Shown: positions 9,884-49,325 of the stretch, in pieces
Numbering within the stretch: the first letter of the stretch is position 1
Layout of the letters: every line of letters begins with the position of its first letter
Source: Porphyromonas gingivicanis JCM 15907
GTDB taxonomy: Bacteria; Bacteroidota; Bacteroidia; Bacteroidales; Porphyromonadaceae
Assembly (NCBI RefSeq): GCF_000614585.1
Contig: NZ_BAKX01000003.1
Span: 248,001-312,000, forward strand
Direction of reading: 5' to 3'
DNA: 64,000 nucleotides
Translations under genes and position numbers: made by a program
The notes under the pieces: generated by a model
Database searches by the model: none
What the model was told of the DNA's origin: nothing
What the model saw: only the letters and a program-made list of their open reading frames with translations

Positions 9884-10171
9884 TCTATTGATGCCTGCTC
9901 TTTTTCGGCTCTCAAAGTTACTATTTTTCTTGAGAGCGGAGTAGTTTCTTAGTAGCGATTTATCTCTGATTGTCTGAAAAGAGGGCTGTTATTTTGCTTA
10001 AGAGAGTTCATTATTAAGTAGCTATTAATCTTTGAAAGGGAACTCATATTTCCTTTCGACTCTAACATTTATTCTCCTCAAGTGCAATATTCCACTTTTG
10101 ACAAAACATCTGGGAACTATTGTATTAGCTTCAAAAACACTTTTGTAACAAACTTCTTCTGTGAAGTATTT

Positions 10172-10257
10172 GAAAGGTATAATGGTTGAGTGAGAAACCA
10201 TTATACCTTTTGTCATTAACCTTTAACCCTTACACTTGTAACCATTAACCCTTTTGA
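10172..10257. repeat. Intergenic palindromic repeat cluster A
   Basis: A perfect 15-bp inverted repeat, AAAGGTATAATGGTT (10173-10187) against AACCATTATACCTTT (10196-10210) with an 8-base loop, followed by inverted copies of the same theme (CATTAACCTTT at 10214 and AACCATTAACCCTTTTGA at 10240-10257). Related clusters are at 21558, 32528, 41647 and 51660. Confidence 0.75.
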
Positions 10258-10371
10258 AAAAATCCATTTGACTTTTTTGTTATGTGAAGGAGGTGTTAGC
10301 CTTTCTTCTCTTCGATATGCTCTTCAGAAAAGAATCTTTCTAACGAAAGTATGGTCAATTCAATATTGTTG

Positions 10372-10388
10372 GCTACCTTTGCGGTAGC
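10372..10388 (+). promoter_or_regulatory. Probable gapA promoter -7 box within an inverted repeat
   Basis: TACCTTTG (10374-10381) matches the Bacteroidetes -7 consensus TAnnTTTG. No TTG stands at the right distance upstream. The box is covered by the inverted repeat GCTACC-N5-GGTAGC (10372-10377 and 10383-10388), which could be an operator. The start codon of gapA is about 170 bases downstream. Confidence 0.5.
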
Positions 10389-10550
10389 TTCACGGGGAGG
10401 GTATTTACAAAACTTCTTTTGTAAGATGTAAAGCAACTTTTATACCTCTCTTTTATCCATTGTAGGTGGGTAGAGTGGTGGCTTGTGAGAGTTCTTTTCC
10501 GTGTAGTCAGCACACTATGCTTATTAAACAATTCAAAATAGTAAATATAA

Positions 10551-11564
<1,014 letters not shown>

Positions 11565-11575
11565 TATATAACATC

Positions 11576-11626
11576 AAGAGGGGGCTTACCGAAGTGTAAT
11601 ACATAGGGCAAGCTCCCTCTTTTCCT
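11576..11626 (+). terminator. Intrinsic terminator of gapA
   Basis: AAGAGGGGGCTT pairs with AAGCTCCCTCTT (one G-T pair) and runs into TTTTCCTTTT, 11 bases after the gapA stop. Confidence 0.75.
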
Positions 11627-11784
11627 TTTATAGACTCTTCTTTTATAGGAGAGAGAAAAAGCCTTCTTATGACTCCTTTGGGGAAAAACTTTTATTAAGA
11701 GATATGCAGTGAGGTGTTAGCCAGCATTGTAGAAAAGGAGCTGGGAGGGATTAATGTAGAATTTTGCAAGCAAAATAGGAACTC

Positions 11785-12807
11785 GTGTCTTTAATAGAAA
11801 AAGTACGTGGCGTTATCGCCGAAGTGGAAAATTTGAAAGCACAACGCTTAGATGAGGTTGAGGCTTTACGGATTCAGTTTCTCAGTAAAAAGGGAAAAAT
11901 ACAAGCTCTTGTAGAGGAGTTTAGAGATGTACCCAGAGAGGAGAAACCTGTAATTGGTGCTCTCCTAAATGAGCTAAAACAGAAAGCTTTAGAGCGAATA
12001 AACTCCTTGAGAGATAGTTTGTCCGTAAAAACCGATACGGAAAGAGAAGACCTCTCTCGTTCTCCCTATCCAATTCCTTTAGGTAGTCGGCATCCTCTCT
12101 CTATCGTACGCCAAGAGATAACGCAGATATTTTCCAAATTAGGCTTTAGCATAGCCCTCGGACCCGAGATAGAGGATGACTATCACGTCTATTCAGCCTT
12201 GAACTTTGCTCCAGACCACCCTGCTCGAGATATGCAGGACACTTTCTTTGTACAGCAACACCCTGATATTGTACTACGCTCCCACACCTCTTCTGTCCAA
12301 GTACGGGTTATGGAGACTTCTAAGCCTCCTATTCGAGTATTATGTCCAGGGCGAGTTTATCGAAATGAGGCTATTTCCGCACGAGCACACTGCTTTTTTC
12401 ACCAAGTAGAGGGGTTGTATATTGATAAGAACGTATCTTTTTCAGATTTGAGAGAGGTGCTTTTCTATTTTGCTCGAGAGCTTTTCGGTCCCGATACAAA
12501 AATTAGGCTTCGCCCAAGCTACTTCCCCTTTACAGAACCTTCTGCCGAGATGGATATTTCTTGTAACATCTGTGGGGGAGAGGGTTGCTCTTTCTGTAAG
12601 CATACAGGTTGGGTAGAGATATTAGGGTGTGGAATGGTAGACCCCAACGTGTTGGAGGCTTCTGGTATAGACTCCTCTGTGTATAGTGGCTATGCTTTTG
12701 GCTTGGGTATAGAGCGTATCACCAACTTGAAGTATAGAGCTAAAGATTTACGCCTATTTTCCGAAAATGACAAGCGTTTCTTAGAGCAGTTCGAGGGGGT
12801 ACACTAA
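11785..12807 (+). CDS. pheS: Phenylalanyl-tRNA synthetase alpha subunit
   Basis: Catalytic alpha chain of the (alpha-beta)2 enzyme. The N-terminal ~90 residues form the coiled tRNA-binding arm. The class II core has motif 2 (GRVYRNEAISARAHCFFHQVEG) and motif 3 (YAFGLGIERI). A cysteine-rich insert near residue 255 reads CNICGGEGCSFCKHTGW and looks like a zinc knuckle (see findings). The start is GTG at 11785, chosen because AATAGGA lies just upstream and the family begins MSLIEK. 340 residues is normal. pheT is not in the window. Confidence 0.95.
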   Translation: MSLIEKVRGVIAEVENLKAQRLDEVEALRIQFLSKKGKIQALVEEFRDVPREEKPVIGALLNELKQKALERINSLRDSLSVKTDTEREDLSRSPYPIPLGSRHPLSIVRQEITQIFSKLGFSIALGPEIEDDYHVYSALNFAPDHPARDMQDTFFVQQHPDIVLRSHTSSVQVRVMETSKPPIRVLCPGRVYRNEAISARAHCFFHQVEGLYIDKNVSFSDLREVLFYFARELFGPDTKIRLRPSYFPFTEPSAEMDISCNICGGEGCSFCKHTGWVEILGCGMVDPNVLEASGIDSSVYSGYAFGLGIERITNLKYRAKDLRLFSENDKRFLEQFEGVH

Positions 12808-41685: not shown

Positions 41686-41793
41686 CGAGAGTTTGCACGG
41701 AAGGTTTCGAGAGTTTACTCGGATGGGTAGAACTAAGGTGATTAAAGGGGAAAAAAGAGAGGCTTCTGCAACGGGACACTCCCCAAGAGTATC

Positions 41794-41834
41794 AAAAAAA
41801 GAGAAGCAACCTTATCGGGCTACTTCTCTTTTAT
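41794..41834 (-). terminator. Terminator at the end of the thiamin operon
   Basis: On the minus strand AAAAGAGAAG pairs with CTTCTCTTTT and is followed by more T, about 70 bases after the transporter stop. Confidence 0.85.
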
Positions 41835-41903
41835 TCTTGTAAAGAGTGTTAGGGAGGAAACTTTCCCTCCAAATACTACTTTTATACTTTATCAGAGTGC
41901 TTT

Positions 41904-43064
41904 TTACAGCTTGACTAACTTATTTACAATTAGAGCAATAGCGCCATCTCCTGTTACATTGCAAGCTGTTCCAAAGCTATCCATAGCGATATAGAGCGCA
42001 ATCATTAGAGCTTGGGAACTTTCGTCAAAGCCTAAGATGGAACTTAATATACCCAAGCAAGCCATAATAGCTCCCCCAGGCACTCCCGGAGCTGCTACCA
42101 TGGTTATACCTAACATTAGTATAAAACCAACGAATTGCAGTGTGTCTATCGGCATTCCCAACATCATCATAAGTGCCACCGCACAGGAAACAATCTTTAG
42201 GGTACTGCCCGATAGGTGGATAGTAGCACAAAGAGGGACAACAAAGCCTGCGACATGAGGAGCTACTCCATTGCGTTGTGTCTGCTCTAAAGTAACAGGG
42301 ATAGTAGCAGCCGACGATTGCGTTCCTAAAGCAGTGAAATAGGCAGGAAGCATAGTCCAAAGTAGACGGAACGGATTGCGGCGAGCAATAAGCCCTGCAA
42401 TGGTATATTGTAGTACCAATAGCCCAATGTGCAGCAGGAAAATCACACCGATTATCTTGATGAATACCATCATTATGCTCCAAGCCTTTCCCGTAAAAGT
42501 CATTTCCAAAAAGATACCGAATATATATATCGGTAAGGCGGGAATAATAACGGAAGTAATAACCTTAGTAATGATTTGCTCAAAATCTTCACAGCTCTTT
42601 TTGAGTGCATTAGAAGTCAGGGATGCCATACCTAAGCCTAAAAGAAATGCCAAAACTAAGGCTGTCATAACGTTAAGTAAAGGCGGTATTTTTATGGAAA
42701 AATAGGGTAGCGGTGTAATGCTACTCTCCGTAATACTTTGTAGAGATTGACTCGTATCTATCAGAGAGGGAAAGGTAAATATACTGGTAATGTATGCCAA
42801 GCCTCCAGAGAAAATAGTTGCACCGTAGGCTATCGCGACTGTAATAAAGAGCATTCTTCCTGCTCCCTTGCCAATACCTGCAATAGCTACACTAACGAGT
42901 CCAAGTATAATAAGAGGAATACAGAAACTCAGAAACTCGCCAAAAAGCCCATTAAAAGTGGTAAAGATACGCACCACAGATAGGGGAAGAAACTGTCCGA
43001 AGAGTACCCCTAAGACAATAGCAATAATGATACGAGGCAATAAGCCTATGCGAAAACTTTTCAT
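41904..43064 (-). CDS. DAACS-family symporter, divergent substrate site
   Basis: 386 residues, about eight membrane helices with two re-entrant hairpins. Family landmarks: GTQSSAATIPVT (hairpin 1 serines), VPLCATIHLSGSTLK (TM7, in place of the NMDGT sodium motif), AAPGVPGG (hairpin 2) and DSFGTACNVTGDG (TM8). The TM8 Asp and NVTGD are kept, but the arginine that binds acidic side chains in GltPh (R397) is Gly here. Glutamate, aspartate or dicarboxylate is therefore unlikely as substrate. Start is 14 bases after thiH, with the operon terminator beyond it, so it is probably read from the TPP-controlled transcript. Confidence 0.82.
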   Translation of the reverse strand: MKSFRIGLLPRIIIAIVLGVLFGQFLPLSVVRIFTTFNGLFGEFLSFCIPLIILGLVSVAIAGIGKGAGRMLFITVAIAYGATIFSGGLAYITSIFTFPSLIDTSQSLQSITESSITPLPYFSIKIPPLLNVMTALVLAFLLGLGMASLTSNALKKSCEDFEQIITKVITSVIIPALPIYIFGIFLEMTFTGKAWSIMMVFIKIIGVIFLLHIGLLVLQYTIAGLIARRNPFRLLWTMLPAYFTALGTQSSAATIPVTLEQTQRNGVAPHVAGFVVPLCATIHLSGSTLKIVSCAVALMMMLGMPIDTLQFVGFILMLGITMVAAPGVPGGAIMACLGILSSILGFDESSQALMIALYIAMDSFGTACNVTGDGAIALIVNKLVKL

Positions 43065-43078
43065 CTATCTTTTTTCTA

Positions 43079-44188
43079 TTATAACCATTCGTCCCAATCT
43101 TTCCAAACAGGTTCGTAGCCTTGTGCTCGTACGGCTGCTGCCATCTCTTCGACCGAACGGGAATCATTAATTTCGAACTGCTCTAACTCTTTGTGCTTTG
43201 TAGCATATCCTCCTGGCTCGGTACTCGAAGCAGCACTCATAGTCGTTACACCAATGCGCATAGCCATATCTCTAAAGGATGCACTTTCTCGAGTAGAGAG
43301 CGAAATATCCACCTCGGGATCGAAGAGGCGATAGGCACAGATGAGTTGAGCCATTTGTCGGTCGTTGATGGGATCGGTAGGCATAAAGCTCCCAACATGA
43401 GGACGTAGGCGAGGTAGAGAAATAGAGTATTTGGTTTTCCAATGGGTACGCTCAAGGTAATGCAGATGAAGAGCTGTAAAGAAAGAGTCAGTTCTCCAAT
43501 TTTGCAATCCGAGCAAAGCACCTATTCCTATCTTTTGTATCCCTGCGGTTCCGCAACGGTCAGGCGTTTCCAATCGATAGCGAAAGTTTGCTTTCTCGCC
43601 CCGGGGGTGAAACTCTGGATAGGTTTTCTCATTGTAAGTCTCTTGATACACACATACATAACTAATACCTGCCTCGTACATTCGTCTATACTCTTCGGTG
43701 GTTAGAGGTTGTACTTCAAGAGATATTTGTGCAAAGTGAGGACGTACAGCTCTTATGACCTCTTCGTAATAAGCTGCATCTGTTAGCTTAGGTGCCTCGC
43801 CAGATACCAATAATAGATGGCGAAAGCCCCATTTCTTTAGAACAGCTATCTCTTCTAAAATCTGAGGAATGTCAAGTTTTACGCGATGTATCTGATTATG
43901 ACAACTAAACCCACAATAAACACAGGAGTTGGTACAGTAATTCGAGACATAAAGTGGCACATACATCTGTATAGTACGCCCATAACGTTTGATGGTCAGT
44001 TGTTCTGCTTTAGTTGCCATCTCTCGAAGAAATGGCTCAGCAGCAGGTGAGATGAGTGCTTTGAAGTCTTCCAAATTGCATCTTTCCTTTTGAAGCGCTC
44101 TCTGTACATCCGAGGCAGTCTTTTTGAAGATAGACCCCTCTACGGCATCCCAGTCGTACTTTTTAAGTTCGTCGTAAAACGTGGTCAT
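43079..44188 (-). CDS. thiH: 2-iminoacetate synthase (tyrosine lyase)
   Basis: Radical SAM enzyme that splits tyrosine to dehydroglycine for the thiamin thiazole ring, the anaerobic alternative to ThiO. The cluster motif is CTNSCVYCGF near residue 88, with QIHRVKLDIPQILEEI and ISLSTRESASFRDMAMRIGVT. 369 residues. It lies 39 bases after thiG. Confidence 0.93.
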   Translation of the reverse strand: MTTFYDELKKYDWDAVEGSIFKKTASDVQRALQKERCNLEDFKALISPAAEPFLREMATKAEQLTIKRYGRTIQMYVPLYVSNYCTNSCVYCGFSCHNQIHRVKLDIPQILEEIAVLKKWGFRHLLLVSGEAPKLTDAAYYEEVIRAVRPHFAQISLEVQPLTTEEYRRMYEAGISYVCVYQETYNEKTYPEFHPRGEKANFRYRLETPDRCGTAGIQKIGIGALLGLQNWRTDSFFTALHLHYLERTHWKTKYSISLPRLRPHVGSFMPTDPINDRQMAQLICAYRLFDPEVDISLSTRESASFRDMAMRIGVTTMSAASSTEPGGYATKHKELEQFEINDSRSVEEMAAAVRAQGYEPVWKDWDEWL

Positions 44189-44227: not shown

Positions 44228-44998
44228 TTACATACCAAAAAAGGTATCTATAGGCGATGTAGCAGAGGCAGATTGCCCCATAGAGGGTAAACCAGCTTCA
44301 TAAGCTCTGCGACCTGCTATGACTGCTTCCTTAAAAGCTCGAGCCATCTCTACAGGATCTCCAGCAGCTGCTATGGCAGTATTGACCAAAACAGCGTCTG
44401 CTCCCATCTCCATTGCCTCTGCTGCATGAGAGGGAGCCCCCAAGCCCGCATCGATAACCACAGGCACGCGACTCTGCTCGATGATTATCTGTAATAAGTC
44501 TTTGGTTTTAAGTCCTTTGTTTGTACCAATAGGAGCTCCCAAGGGCATTACGGCTGCTGCGCCAGCATCTTCGAGGTATTTACAAAGTATAGGGTCTGCC
44601 TGAATGTAGGGCATCACTATAAATCCCTCTTTTGCCAATACTTCAGTAGCCTTCAGAGTTTCAAAAGGGTCGGGCAGAAGATACTTGGGGTCGGGATGAA
44701 TTTCTACTTTTACAATCTTAGAACCGAAAGCCTCATATGCTAAACGAGAGGCAAATATAGCCTCCTCGGCATTGTGGGTACCCGAGGTGTTGGGCATGAG
44801 TTTTACTCCAGATTGAGTTATGGAAGCGATGAGTTTATCGTGTTCATTGTTCATCTCGACTCTTTTGAGAGCTACTGTTACCAACTCGCTTTCGGAAGCA
44901 AGGATAGCGTTATACATTAAATCATTGGATGCAAACTTGCCCGTACCTAAAAAAAGACGAGAAGTAAATTTCTCTCCCGATAAAATAAGAGGTTGCAT
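44228..44998 (-). CDS. thiG: Thiazole synthase
   Basis: Condenses 1-deoxyxylulose 5-phosphate, dehydroglycine and ThiS thiocarboxylate. 256 residues, TIM barrel: [47 protein letters not shown] (Schiff-base lysine region), [31 protein letters not shown]. Complete. Confidence 0.95.
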
Positions 44999-45023: not shown

Positions 45024-47006
45024 TTACTTTGTAAATAGTTGCTGTAAGGTCTCTACCATAGCGGTAGTGGTAGCGAAAATATCGTCTACATGATTGATAG
45101 CCCCAGATAACGCAATTCCTTGTATATCTAATGATGCAAGGTCAGCAAAATCAGAAGGCGTAATCCCTCCGATAGCAAATAAAGGAATAGGGTGGGGGAG
45201 TTGCTGATTATACTTACTCAAAACGTCCATTCCCTTCTTTCCTAATATAGGGCTAAGTACTTTTTTGGTGGAGGTGGCTCGATAGGGTCCTATACCAATG
45301 TAGTCTACTCCCTCAAGAGCTCTTTGACTTATATCTTGACACGTGTTGCAAGTACCTCCTATTATTTTACTTGTTCCTAAGACTTTTCGAGCTGTGGCTG
45401 GAGAGACATCCCCCAAGCCCAAATGCACTCCATGAGCATCGCAAGCTAAGGCGGTTTCCAAGTCGTCGTTTATAATCAGCGTTGCTCCGAGATAGTTTTG
45501 CATCAGCTTTTTTAGAGCAAATGCTGCTTCAAGTCTCTGAGCTGAAGACACCTCTTTCATGCGTAACTGTACCCATCGGACACCTGCCTCTAAGGCAAAT
45601 TCTGCTTTGGAAAGTAATTCTGTCAAGTCCGTCGAGTCGGTAATATATTGGAGGTGGCAGGTCTTTAAGCGCAGCTTTTTCTCGATCAATTCAACAGGTT
45701 TATGCCCTCCTAAGAGCTGACTATTTGAACGTCGGAAAGCATCTGTTCGCCATTGTCCCCATCTACAAGCAGAGGGTAGGTCATACCCATGAGCAAGAAA
45801 TGAAACAATAGAGGCAGAGAGGGTACACCCCGTACCATGTTTGTCGTGCGGAGTGCGTGGCACTGTATATCGAGCCATCTGCCCATCAGGCGAAAAAAGC
45901 AAATCTGTCGAAACATTTTTGTGGCTGTTTTCGTGTCCTCCCTTTAATAAGATATAGGTTTGATATTCAGAGGCCAACAGAGAAAGGTCGAATGCTTCGG
46001 TAGAGCCAAAAAGTTGTTGCGCTTCGGGATAATTAGGAGTAACCAACGTTATTAGAGAAAGAAACTCCTTGATTTCATTGGCAGAAAAAGCATTGTGTAT
46101 GCTATTTTCCGAAGCAGAGGCTTTGAGAATTGGGTCCCAAACAACATAGCGTACTCCCTTTTGACGGAGTTTTTGAGCGATTCTGATACCTTGTCGGAGT
46201 GAAGAAATCAATCCTATTTTACAAGCAACAGGGGTATGATGTGCCAAAAGTACCTCTAAGGGGTGCTCTTCTTCAAGTGGCGATAAGGAGACAAAGTCAT
46301 ATTCGTTTTGAGCTGTTATCGAGCTACATACCGAAAGAGGATAGGTGTCATTGCTTTCAAAAACTCTTATATCTCCCCCTATTCCTGCTCCTGACGTGGG
46401 GTCATGCCCTGCTACGGTTAAGACTTCGGGCTGAGGGTAGCGCAAGAAAGCCTCTTCGATATACTCTCCCGAAACGGCTAAATCCCCTAAAACAGCTACT
46501 CCCGAAAAACCATACTCCAAAGCCTTCCTATATCTTTCGTGGGTTATACCACCTAAGGCGACTACAGGAAAGGGTAACTGAGGCAGATATTTTTGGCATT
46601 CCTTTACGTTCAACTGTGCTGGATAGTTAGTTTTGGAAATGCTATCGAATAGTGGACTGAGCAAGGCATAAGTCGGTACAAAGGGAAGCTGTCGCAACTC
46701 TTCTATCGAATGAGCAGAAACAGATACTCTGCCTCGATTTATACCCTGCCAGTCTCGCCACTGGTCAATATATTCTTTACGCAAATGAATACCCCCTGTA
46801 CCTGCTATATCTCCTAACTCAAAGTAATCACACAAAACAACTCTATGCCTAAAAGCAGGCTCGATAGCTTGAATGCAAGCCTTGTATTGCTCTCGAGAAG
46901 CATTAGGTAGTCGCAAGTGCAATGAGTGCAACCCAAGTGAAAAAAGACGGTTGTAACGAACTATATCTCTTGGAGTAGCATCGGGGGGAGTAATAGCGAT
47001 AAACAT
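45024..47006 (-). CDS. ThiE-like / ThiD / ThiE three-domain fusion
   Basis: 660 residues in three parts. Residues 1-200 are a ThiE/TenI-like barrel with altered site residues (LHLRLP in place of QLRxK; then GGIHLRKEY, SVSAHSIEEL, ALGGI). Residues ~200-450 are ThiD, the HMP/HMP-P kinase: TVAGHDPTSGAGIGGDIRVF, DPILKASA, PNYPEAQQL, HDKHGTGCTLSASI. Residues ~455-660 are canonical ThiE, thiamin phosphate synthase: VQLRMKEV, LIINDDLETALACDAHGVHLGLGD, GIGPYRATSTK, FAIGGI. The protein would phosphorylate HMP-P and couple it to the thiazole. The first domain may be a non-catalytic or altered paralogue. Confidence 0.9.
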   Translation of the reverse strand: MFIAITPPDATPRDIVRYNRLFSLGLHSLHLRLPNASREQYKACIQAIEPAFRHRVVLCDYFELGDIAGTGGIHLRKEYIDQWRDWQGINRGRVSVSAHSIEELRQLPFVPTYALLSPLFDSISKTNYPAQLNVKECQKYLPQLPFPVVALGGITHERYRKALEYGFSGVAVLGDLAVSGEYIEEAFLRYPQPEVLTVAGHDPTSGAGIGGDIRVFESNDTYPLSVCSSITAQNEYDFVSLSPLEEEHPLEVLLAHHTPVACKIGLISSLRQGIRIAQKLRQKGVRYVVWDPILKASASENSIHNAFSANEIKEFLSLITLVTPNYPEAQQLFGSTEAFDLSLLASEYQTYILLKGGHENSHKNVSTDLLFSPDGQMARYTVPRTPHDKHGTGCTLSASIVSFLAHGYDLPSACRWGQWRTDAFRRSNSQLLGGHKPVELIEKKLRLKTCHLQYITDSTDLTELLSKAEFALEAGVRWVQLRMKEVSSAQRLEAAFALKKLMQNYLGATLIINDDLETALACDAHGVHLGLGDVSPATARKVLGTSKIIGGTCNTCQDISQRALEGVDYIGIGPYRATSTKKVLSPILGKKGMDVLSKYNQQLPHPIPLFAIGGITPSDFADLASLDIQGIALSGAINHVDDIFATTTAMVETLQQLFTK

Positions 47007-47026: not shown

Positions 47027-48805
<1,779 letters not shown>

Positions 48806-48850: not shown

Positions 48851-49051
48851 TTATCCTCCTCTTACAGCTCCGATAATGAGTATCTTATCTCCTTCTTTAA
48901 GATAGGTTATTTCCCAGTTTTCTCGCTTTATAATTTCTTGATTGACTGCCACGGCAATGTATCCACCTTCTATCTGCTCCAAGGCAATAAGAGAGGTTAT
49001 AGTACACTCATCAGGCACTATTTTTATCTTTTGATTAAGTTCGATTTGCAT
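48851..49051 (-). CDS. thiS: Sulfur carrier protein ThiS
   Basis: 66-residue ubiquitin-fold carrier ending in Gly-Gly (AVRGG), which is adenylated and then thiocarboxylated to give sulfur to ThiG. ALEQIEGGYIAVAVNQEII is the family core. First gene after the riboswitch. The activating enzyme ThiF is not in this cluster. Confidence 0.9.
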   Translation of the reverse strand: MQIELNQKIKIVPDECTITSLIALEQIEGGYIAVAVNQEIIKRENWEITYLKEGDKILIIGAVRGG

Positions 49052-49177
49052 TATTCTTAATGGGTTACATTCTCTCCATCCTTTTCAAACAGGGATTTTT
49101 AGAAGAGTAATTCCATCAAACTTGGGAATAAATGGGAGGTAACCATGGCCAGAACAAGCCACTTCAAAGATTGTTTC

Positions 49178-49265
49178 TTTGCCTACGCCAGTATTATCTG
49201 GATCAGGTCACGGGTATCCTCTCAGCCAAAAAGGAGATATTACAACTCTTATTGGCACCCCCAAG
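49178..49265 (-). ncRNA. TPP (THI-box) riboswitch
   Basis: On the minus strand: GGGGTGCC, then GGCTGAGAGGATACCCGTGACC, TGATCCAGATAATACTGGCG and TAGGCA, the conserved order of the thiamin pyrophosphate aptamer. It lies ~127 bases before thiS. I see no T-rich terminator after it, so control of translation or of the long leader is more likely than attenuation. Confidence 0.95.
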
Positions 49266-49295
49266 AAAGATTAGACTCTTCATTCTAATCCTCGG

Positions 49296-49325
49296 CAAAG
49301 GTATCATTATATATGTAGAGAACAA
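49296..49325 (-). promoter_or_regulatory. Thiamin operon promoter
   Basis: On the minus strand: TTG (49323-49325), 19 bases, TACCTTTG (49296-49303), an excellent consensus match about 30 bases ahead of the riboswitch. The perfect inverted repeat AGAGAACA-N7-TGTTCTCT (49317-49324, 49332-49339) covers the -33 element and may be an operator. Confidence 0.8.

Follow-up and report, generated by a model that had tools for sequence, protein, structure and literature searches.

A probable serine/threonine carrier gene at the end of a TPP-riboswitch-led thiamin operon in Porphyromonas gingivicanis and a near sister species

In the DAACS carrier GltPh, the single substitution R397C is reported to turn aspartate transport into transport of serine, alanine and cysteine (PMC5750217), and alanine mutants of N310 and D312 are described as not functioning (PMC3302783). 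A review credits the P. gingivalis genome with a single SstT, whose best substrates are serine and threonine (PMC8048996), and the thi operon of this species is given as five genes, PG2107-11 (PMC3946380). For the TPP-controlled thi operon of B. thetaiotaomicron, the account of its regulation has the whole operon falling upon thiamin, and terms the mode of action of TPP riboswitches in the phylum uncertain (PMC5613172).

Here we describe a thiamin operon of Porphyromonas gingivicanis JCM 15907, lying in an analysed stretch of 64,000 nucleotides (hereafter the window), which closes with a DAACS gene (Table 1). As in B. thetaiotaomicron, a riboswitch lies upstream of the operon; unlike the gene order set out for that species, thiSEGCHF-tenI with no DAACS gene named in it and with PnuT under another riboswitch (PMC5613172), the order here is thiS-thiC-(ThiE/TenI-ThiD-ThiE fusion)-thiG-thiH-transporter. 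The RF00059 match, inside which the first-pass annotation had drawn a riboswitch at 49178-49265, is the only Rfam match at the gathering threshold in the window and the only match to that family in the whole genome, and the ORF coordinates agree with the same annotation in placing the transporter 14 nt after thiH (gap 43065-43078). Fusions resembling the ThiE/TenI-ThiD gene occur in relatives.

Table 1. Features of the thi operon and of its flanks, in window coordinates and in order of reading
Feature	Position	Strand	Basis
Bacteroidota-type promoter-like motif upstream of riboswitch	49296..49325	(-)	TTG-N18..23-TAnnTTTG scan
TPP riboswitch aptamer	49163..49272	(-)	RF00059, 62.1 bits
thiS, 66 aa, GG at end	48851..49051	(-)	named from GG end and place
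thiC	47027..48796	(-)	NF006763, 1019 bits (cut-off 650)
Fused gene, 660 aa: two ThiE/TenI-type stretches around one ThiD domain	45024..47006	(-)	PF02581 x2, PF08543 x1
thiG	44228..44998	(-)	PF05690, 349.3 bits
thiH, 2-iminoacetate synthase	43079..44188	(-)	TIGR02351, 540.5 bits (cut-off 380)
DAACS/SDF transporter ORF, putative P. gingivalis-SstT-type subfamily	41904..43064	(-)	386 aa, PF00375, alignment, model
Terminator-like hairpin and T-run downstream of transporter	about 41794..41830	(-)	sequence, fold

Our reading of this arrangement, to which we give a probability of roughly 0.72, is as follows. The transporter would be a Na+-coupled, elevator-type carrier of neutral hydroxy amino acids (serine, threonine), which a rearrangement in the common ancestor of the window species and a near sister species (G024) would have set directly behind thiH, the thiF-type gene that most relatives have at that place apparently lying elsewhere now. 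Read-through from the riboswitch promoter would reach the transporter, an ample supply of TPP should lower its expression, and its transport work, the purpose of which would be amino-acid uptake, would go on as before. On this reading, the transporter is a commonplace carrier of the Ser/Thr type at an operon position that is unusual and tied to one lineage; what the first-pass annotation observed is real and was described well, and its interpretation went partly too far.

The transporter is the sole PF00375 gene of its genome (303.8 bits, the cut-off being 27.9, covering positions 1-386 of the 387 in the profile); 11 of the 17 genomes searched have exactly one such gene, and six have none. An AlphaFold2 model based on 18 orthologues (mean pLDDT 80.0, pTM 0.75) has GltPh as its top structural match (6wyk; Z 38.1, rmsd 3.0, 365 aligned), nearly equalled by ASCT2 (8oui_B; Z 36.5, rmsd 3.3, 362 aligned), so that the predicted protein has the GltPh elevator fold, which it would likewise share with human ASCT2, another carrier without the arginine. 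ASCT2 was also ranked first (6.1e-19) by a single-sequence search of solved structures, and a profile search of solved structures at 1e-30 returned no matches. The best NCBIfam model for the transporter is the SstT equivalog NF010151, the cut-off of which (308 bits) is reached neither by the transporter (79.4 bits) nor by its P. gingivalis orthologue (84.5 bits), with the controls, E. coli SstT (705.7 bits) and locus L027 (589.7 bits), both above it. This last locus, in another genome of the order (G055), encodes a true E. coli-type SstT, distinct from the subfamily of the transporter.

The residues that mark this subfamily were first noticed in TM7 and TM8, where HLSGS had been read in place of the NMDGT of GltPh, and glycine in place of its R397; both are seen in the alignment. 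TM8 reads DSFGTACNVTGD, with Gly365 in the R397 column, which holds arginine in E. coli GltP, DctA and TcyP and glutamate in E. coli SstT. The latter protein, 24% identical to the transporter, differs from it also in TM7 (NMAGA), and resembles it in the HP1 motif SSAA and in the aspartate at the last TM8 site, a site occupied by asparagine in GltP and DctA of E. coli, which are H+-coupled. The signature holds well beyond the window: in a 45-member alignment (16 of the 18 orthologues from the genomes searched, and 29 of the 80 named loci), His283, Gly286, Ser287, Asp362, Phe364, Gly365, Thr366, Asn369, Gly372 and Asp373 are invariant, as are both HP1 serines and the SSAA pattern, with the TM8 Asp, Thr, Asn and Asp retained throughout. 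TM7 follows the pattern HL-S/A-GS, residue 285 being serine in 42 members and alanine in three, and M replacing L in 2/45. In a tree, a split with a support of 100/99 sets the 45 subfamily rows apart from 13 other DAACS rows; this split is the sole tree result on which we rely, rows L023 and L026 (end branches of 10) being very probably wrong reading frames that arose from picking the longest ORF, and Ec_TcyP and Ec_DctA standing on long branches too. Taken together, the signature and a clade apart from the E. coli DAACS proteins would place the transporter in a P. gingivalis-type SstT subfamily. Because the signature is fixed in all 45 members, whether thi genes are near or not, it is the mark of a clade, not an adaptation to thiamin. 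The Na3 ligands N310 and D312 of GltPh are replaced throughout the subfamily, by His283 and by serine or alanine at 285, so that the GltPh scheme of Na+ coupling need not apply: the transporter is presumably Na+-coupled, and the stoichiometry in this subfamily may differ from that of GltPh. That a DAACS subfamily found across the Bacteroidota has its Na3-site residues replaced is of mechanistic interest in itself.

As for the substrate, glutamate and dicarboxylates had been called unlikely, and we agree: the transporter has neither the arginine nor the NMDGT of the acidic amino acid and dicarboxylate branch, and in GltPh the change R397C is reported to cost aspartate transport (PMC5750217). 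A loss of acidic-substrate recognition thus seems well supported by the residues present. The nearest described carrier is that of P. gingivalis ATCC 33277, the genome of which has one PF00375 gene, and it is because this is the only DAACS gene there that we tie the name SstT to it. Its product is 66% identical to the transporter and shares both the HL-S/A-GS and D-x-FGTA-x-NVTGD signature and the single copy; it differs in that the gene lies downstream of a MeaB gene, outside the thi operon. The protein adjoining this P. gingivalis transporter is identical in 216 of 220 residues to chain 2qsv, which we take to come from P. gingivalis. The substrate of the window transporter is, then, most likely serine and threonine. 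The window and G024 transporters have kept every residue that is conserved among the remaining 43 members, the last residue excepted, and there is therefore no sign that the substrate changed once the gene had moved.

The linkage to thi genes is confined to these two genomes. Counting proteins of at least 54% identity as orthologues, we found the transporter in 18 of 61 genomes (the window genome and 60 relatives); thiH was found in 14 of the 18 and gave no match in the other four (G005, G019, G021, G039). The two genes lie side by side in the window genome and in G024, there with a gap of 29 nt, and the recurrence of the junction in an independent genome shows that it is not an assembly artefact. 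The other 12 genomes have thiH on a separate contig or at least 160 kb from the transporter, including one (G047) in which the transporter locus is a 4-kb contig and thiH is on another. Among the 26 genomes of the genus, the transporter occurs in 13 and thiH in 20. A class sample of 395 genomes, in which linkage was judged by the positions of thiG, not of riboswitches, has the transporter in eight, the window genome included, and thiG is present in three of the other seven, either 430 kb off or on a different contig. Among 80 named loci (54 with full 10-kb flanks), thiC, thiG and thiH are near the transporter in one, that of Myroides odoratimimus (L148:10001-14046), in which the transporter (10001-11176), a member of the same subfamily, is upstream of a full thi operon. 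We rejected this locus as a second TPP-controlled case, since its riboswitch (11816-11915) comes after the transporter, with an ORF between, and so exerts no control on it. A Gelidibacter locus (L147) has a lone ThiE/TenI-like ORF (11244-11906, 28% identity) directly after the transporter and no TPP riboswitch; we take this apparent thi link to be due to chance.

In 15 orthologue-bearing genomes without a thi link, most of the immediate neighbours have housekeeping roles or no evident relation to the transporter (TypA family at four loci, MeaB at three; further RmuC, SmpB, NhaC and a sigma factor), and searches on 10 chosen neighbour proteins gave no thiamin partner. The adjoining MeaB genes could hint at threonine/propionate metabolism. 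Since in relatives this transporter is found at other places in the genome, its thiamin link looks local, perhaps accidental. The linkage of thiH to a DAACS gene, by which the first-pass annotation would have had its idea stand or fall, is therefore absent from relatives save the one near sister species. The dedicated thiamin-pathway substrate suggested in that annotation is not supported, with the signature invariant in 45/45 regardless of thi genes, the linkage seen in 2/18 genomes and serine and threonine preferred by the P. gingivalis SstT. A transporter should not be taken for a thiamin-pathway carrier on the strength of closing a thiamin operon, and the case corrects a natural but risky inference.

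How the transporter came to its place is suggested by the gene that most relatives have there. A ThiF-family gene follows thiH within 80 bp in 19 of the 24 thiH-bearing genomes of the family, the exceptions being the window genome, G024, P. gingivalis, G010 and G006; the transporter thus holds a place that a thiF-type gene occupies in most related thi loci. The closest-matching ThiF/MoeB-type gene of the window genome (C33:8370-9095) is about 280 kb from thiH and, with its G024 counterpart (L194:5600-6325), lies within another gene cluster that is common to both genomes. The two proteins are 81% identical to each other and 51-61% identical to the thiF-type proteins of four relatives; the window protein scores 210 bits, under the NCBIfam ThiF cut-off of 275, as does a thiH-adjacent thiF-type protein in a relative (G007, 197 bits). 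The flanks past the transporter differ between the window genome and G024. Between the same genomes, dN is 0.046 for the transporter and 0.060 for thiH, with synonymous sites saturated in both, indicating that both genes are under purifying selection. The simplest reading is a single rearrangement in the ancestor of the two, probably bringing the transporter in after thiH and taking the thiF-type gene out.

A rearrangement by chance does not, however, explain one further fact. PnuT (PF04973) has no match in the window genome (88.5% complete) or in G024 (98% complete), precisely the two genomes with the thiH-transporter junction, and is present in 6/6 other relatives searched, which keeps alive the idea of a role for the transporter in B1 supply. 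Put at its strongest, the only DAACS carrier of a PnuT-less Porphyromonas lineage would stand under a TPP riboswitch as a working part of B1 supply, low TPP leading to more uptake of serine or cysteine, or in the extreme case of thiamin or one of its precursors. We consider this unlikely, as we do a selected, TPP-controlled role of the transporter in general. A literature search for a DAACS carrier in a TPP regulon found none, and to our knowledge this one would be the first. Should TPP control prove to exist and to be of use to the cell, bacteria that ferment amino acids would have the uptake of these coupled to their vitamin status.

It is, similarly, improbable that the transporter was recruited for thiamin synthesis, such that scarce TPP would raise uptake of serine or cysteine and so the supply of sulfur (cysteine to ThiS), pyruvate (to DXP) and glycine (purine branch). 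The junction has been retained in two species with saturated synonymous sites, the riboswitch and the promoter-like motif directly upstream of it have been retained in G024 along with the junction, and GltPh without R397 is reported to take cysteine besides serine (PMC5750217). However, 16 of the 18 orthologue-bearing genomes have no such linkage and four lack a thiH match, the conserved sites of the transporter are all unchanged, and gene order is retained between the window genome and G024 at the thiF locus as well, so that the kept thiH-transporter junction is nothing special.

Whether the riboswitch reaches the transporter at all depends on the signals along the operon. The motif TTG-N18..23-TAnnTTTG, the Bacteroidota-type promoter consensus, has nine matches over the two strands of the window, and the scan found none between thiH and the transporter. 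An E. coli-type match (10/12) at 43106-43078, overlapping the end of thiH, would allow the transporter a promoter of its own and make its operon place one without regulatory effect. We hold this to be quite improbable, because such matches are as numerous as in shuffles (16 found, 15.8 expected), because no Bacteroidota-type motif intervenes and because the gap is 14 nt. The first-pass annotation had put the first terminator beyond the transporter. A strong hairpin with a T-run is there, and the fold of 41780-41905 has a z of -3.64, with 0/200 shuffles equally stable; but this hairpin is not among the sites of a pattern scan, which gives instead four same-strand terminator-like sites inside genes of the operon, two of them in the transporter (42977-42958, 42724-42707). 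The excess of such sites on both strands is real (13, against 6.7 in shuffles, sd 2.8), yet these are weak, with 5-6 pairs, and fall within coding DNA.

The layout supports the preferred reading in that the transporter belongs to the thi transcription unit, with which it would be co-transcribed. TPP control, which the first-pass annotation had derived from that membership, is likely. On reading the sequence we saw no T-run between aptamer and thiS, which suggests that riboswitch control may be translational, and if control is exerted through the translation of thiS, its effect on the last gene, a long way off, could be smaller or absent.

That the transporter substitutes for the lost PnuT as a carrier of thiamin or a precursor is barely credible, although PF04973 is missing from both junction genomes and each has its single TPP riboswitch at the thi operon, since TM8 and HP1 retain every amino-acid-binding residue, the transporter shows no lineage-specific change, the window genome is incomplete and a single TPP riboswitch per genome is nothing unusual (14 of 28 genomes, these two included). 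We know of no DAACS protein that carries thiamin. A phage collection gave matches to the transporter (57-71%) in records that come from human fecal samples, carry no annotation and are probably bacterial DNA.
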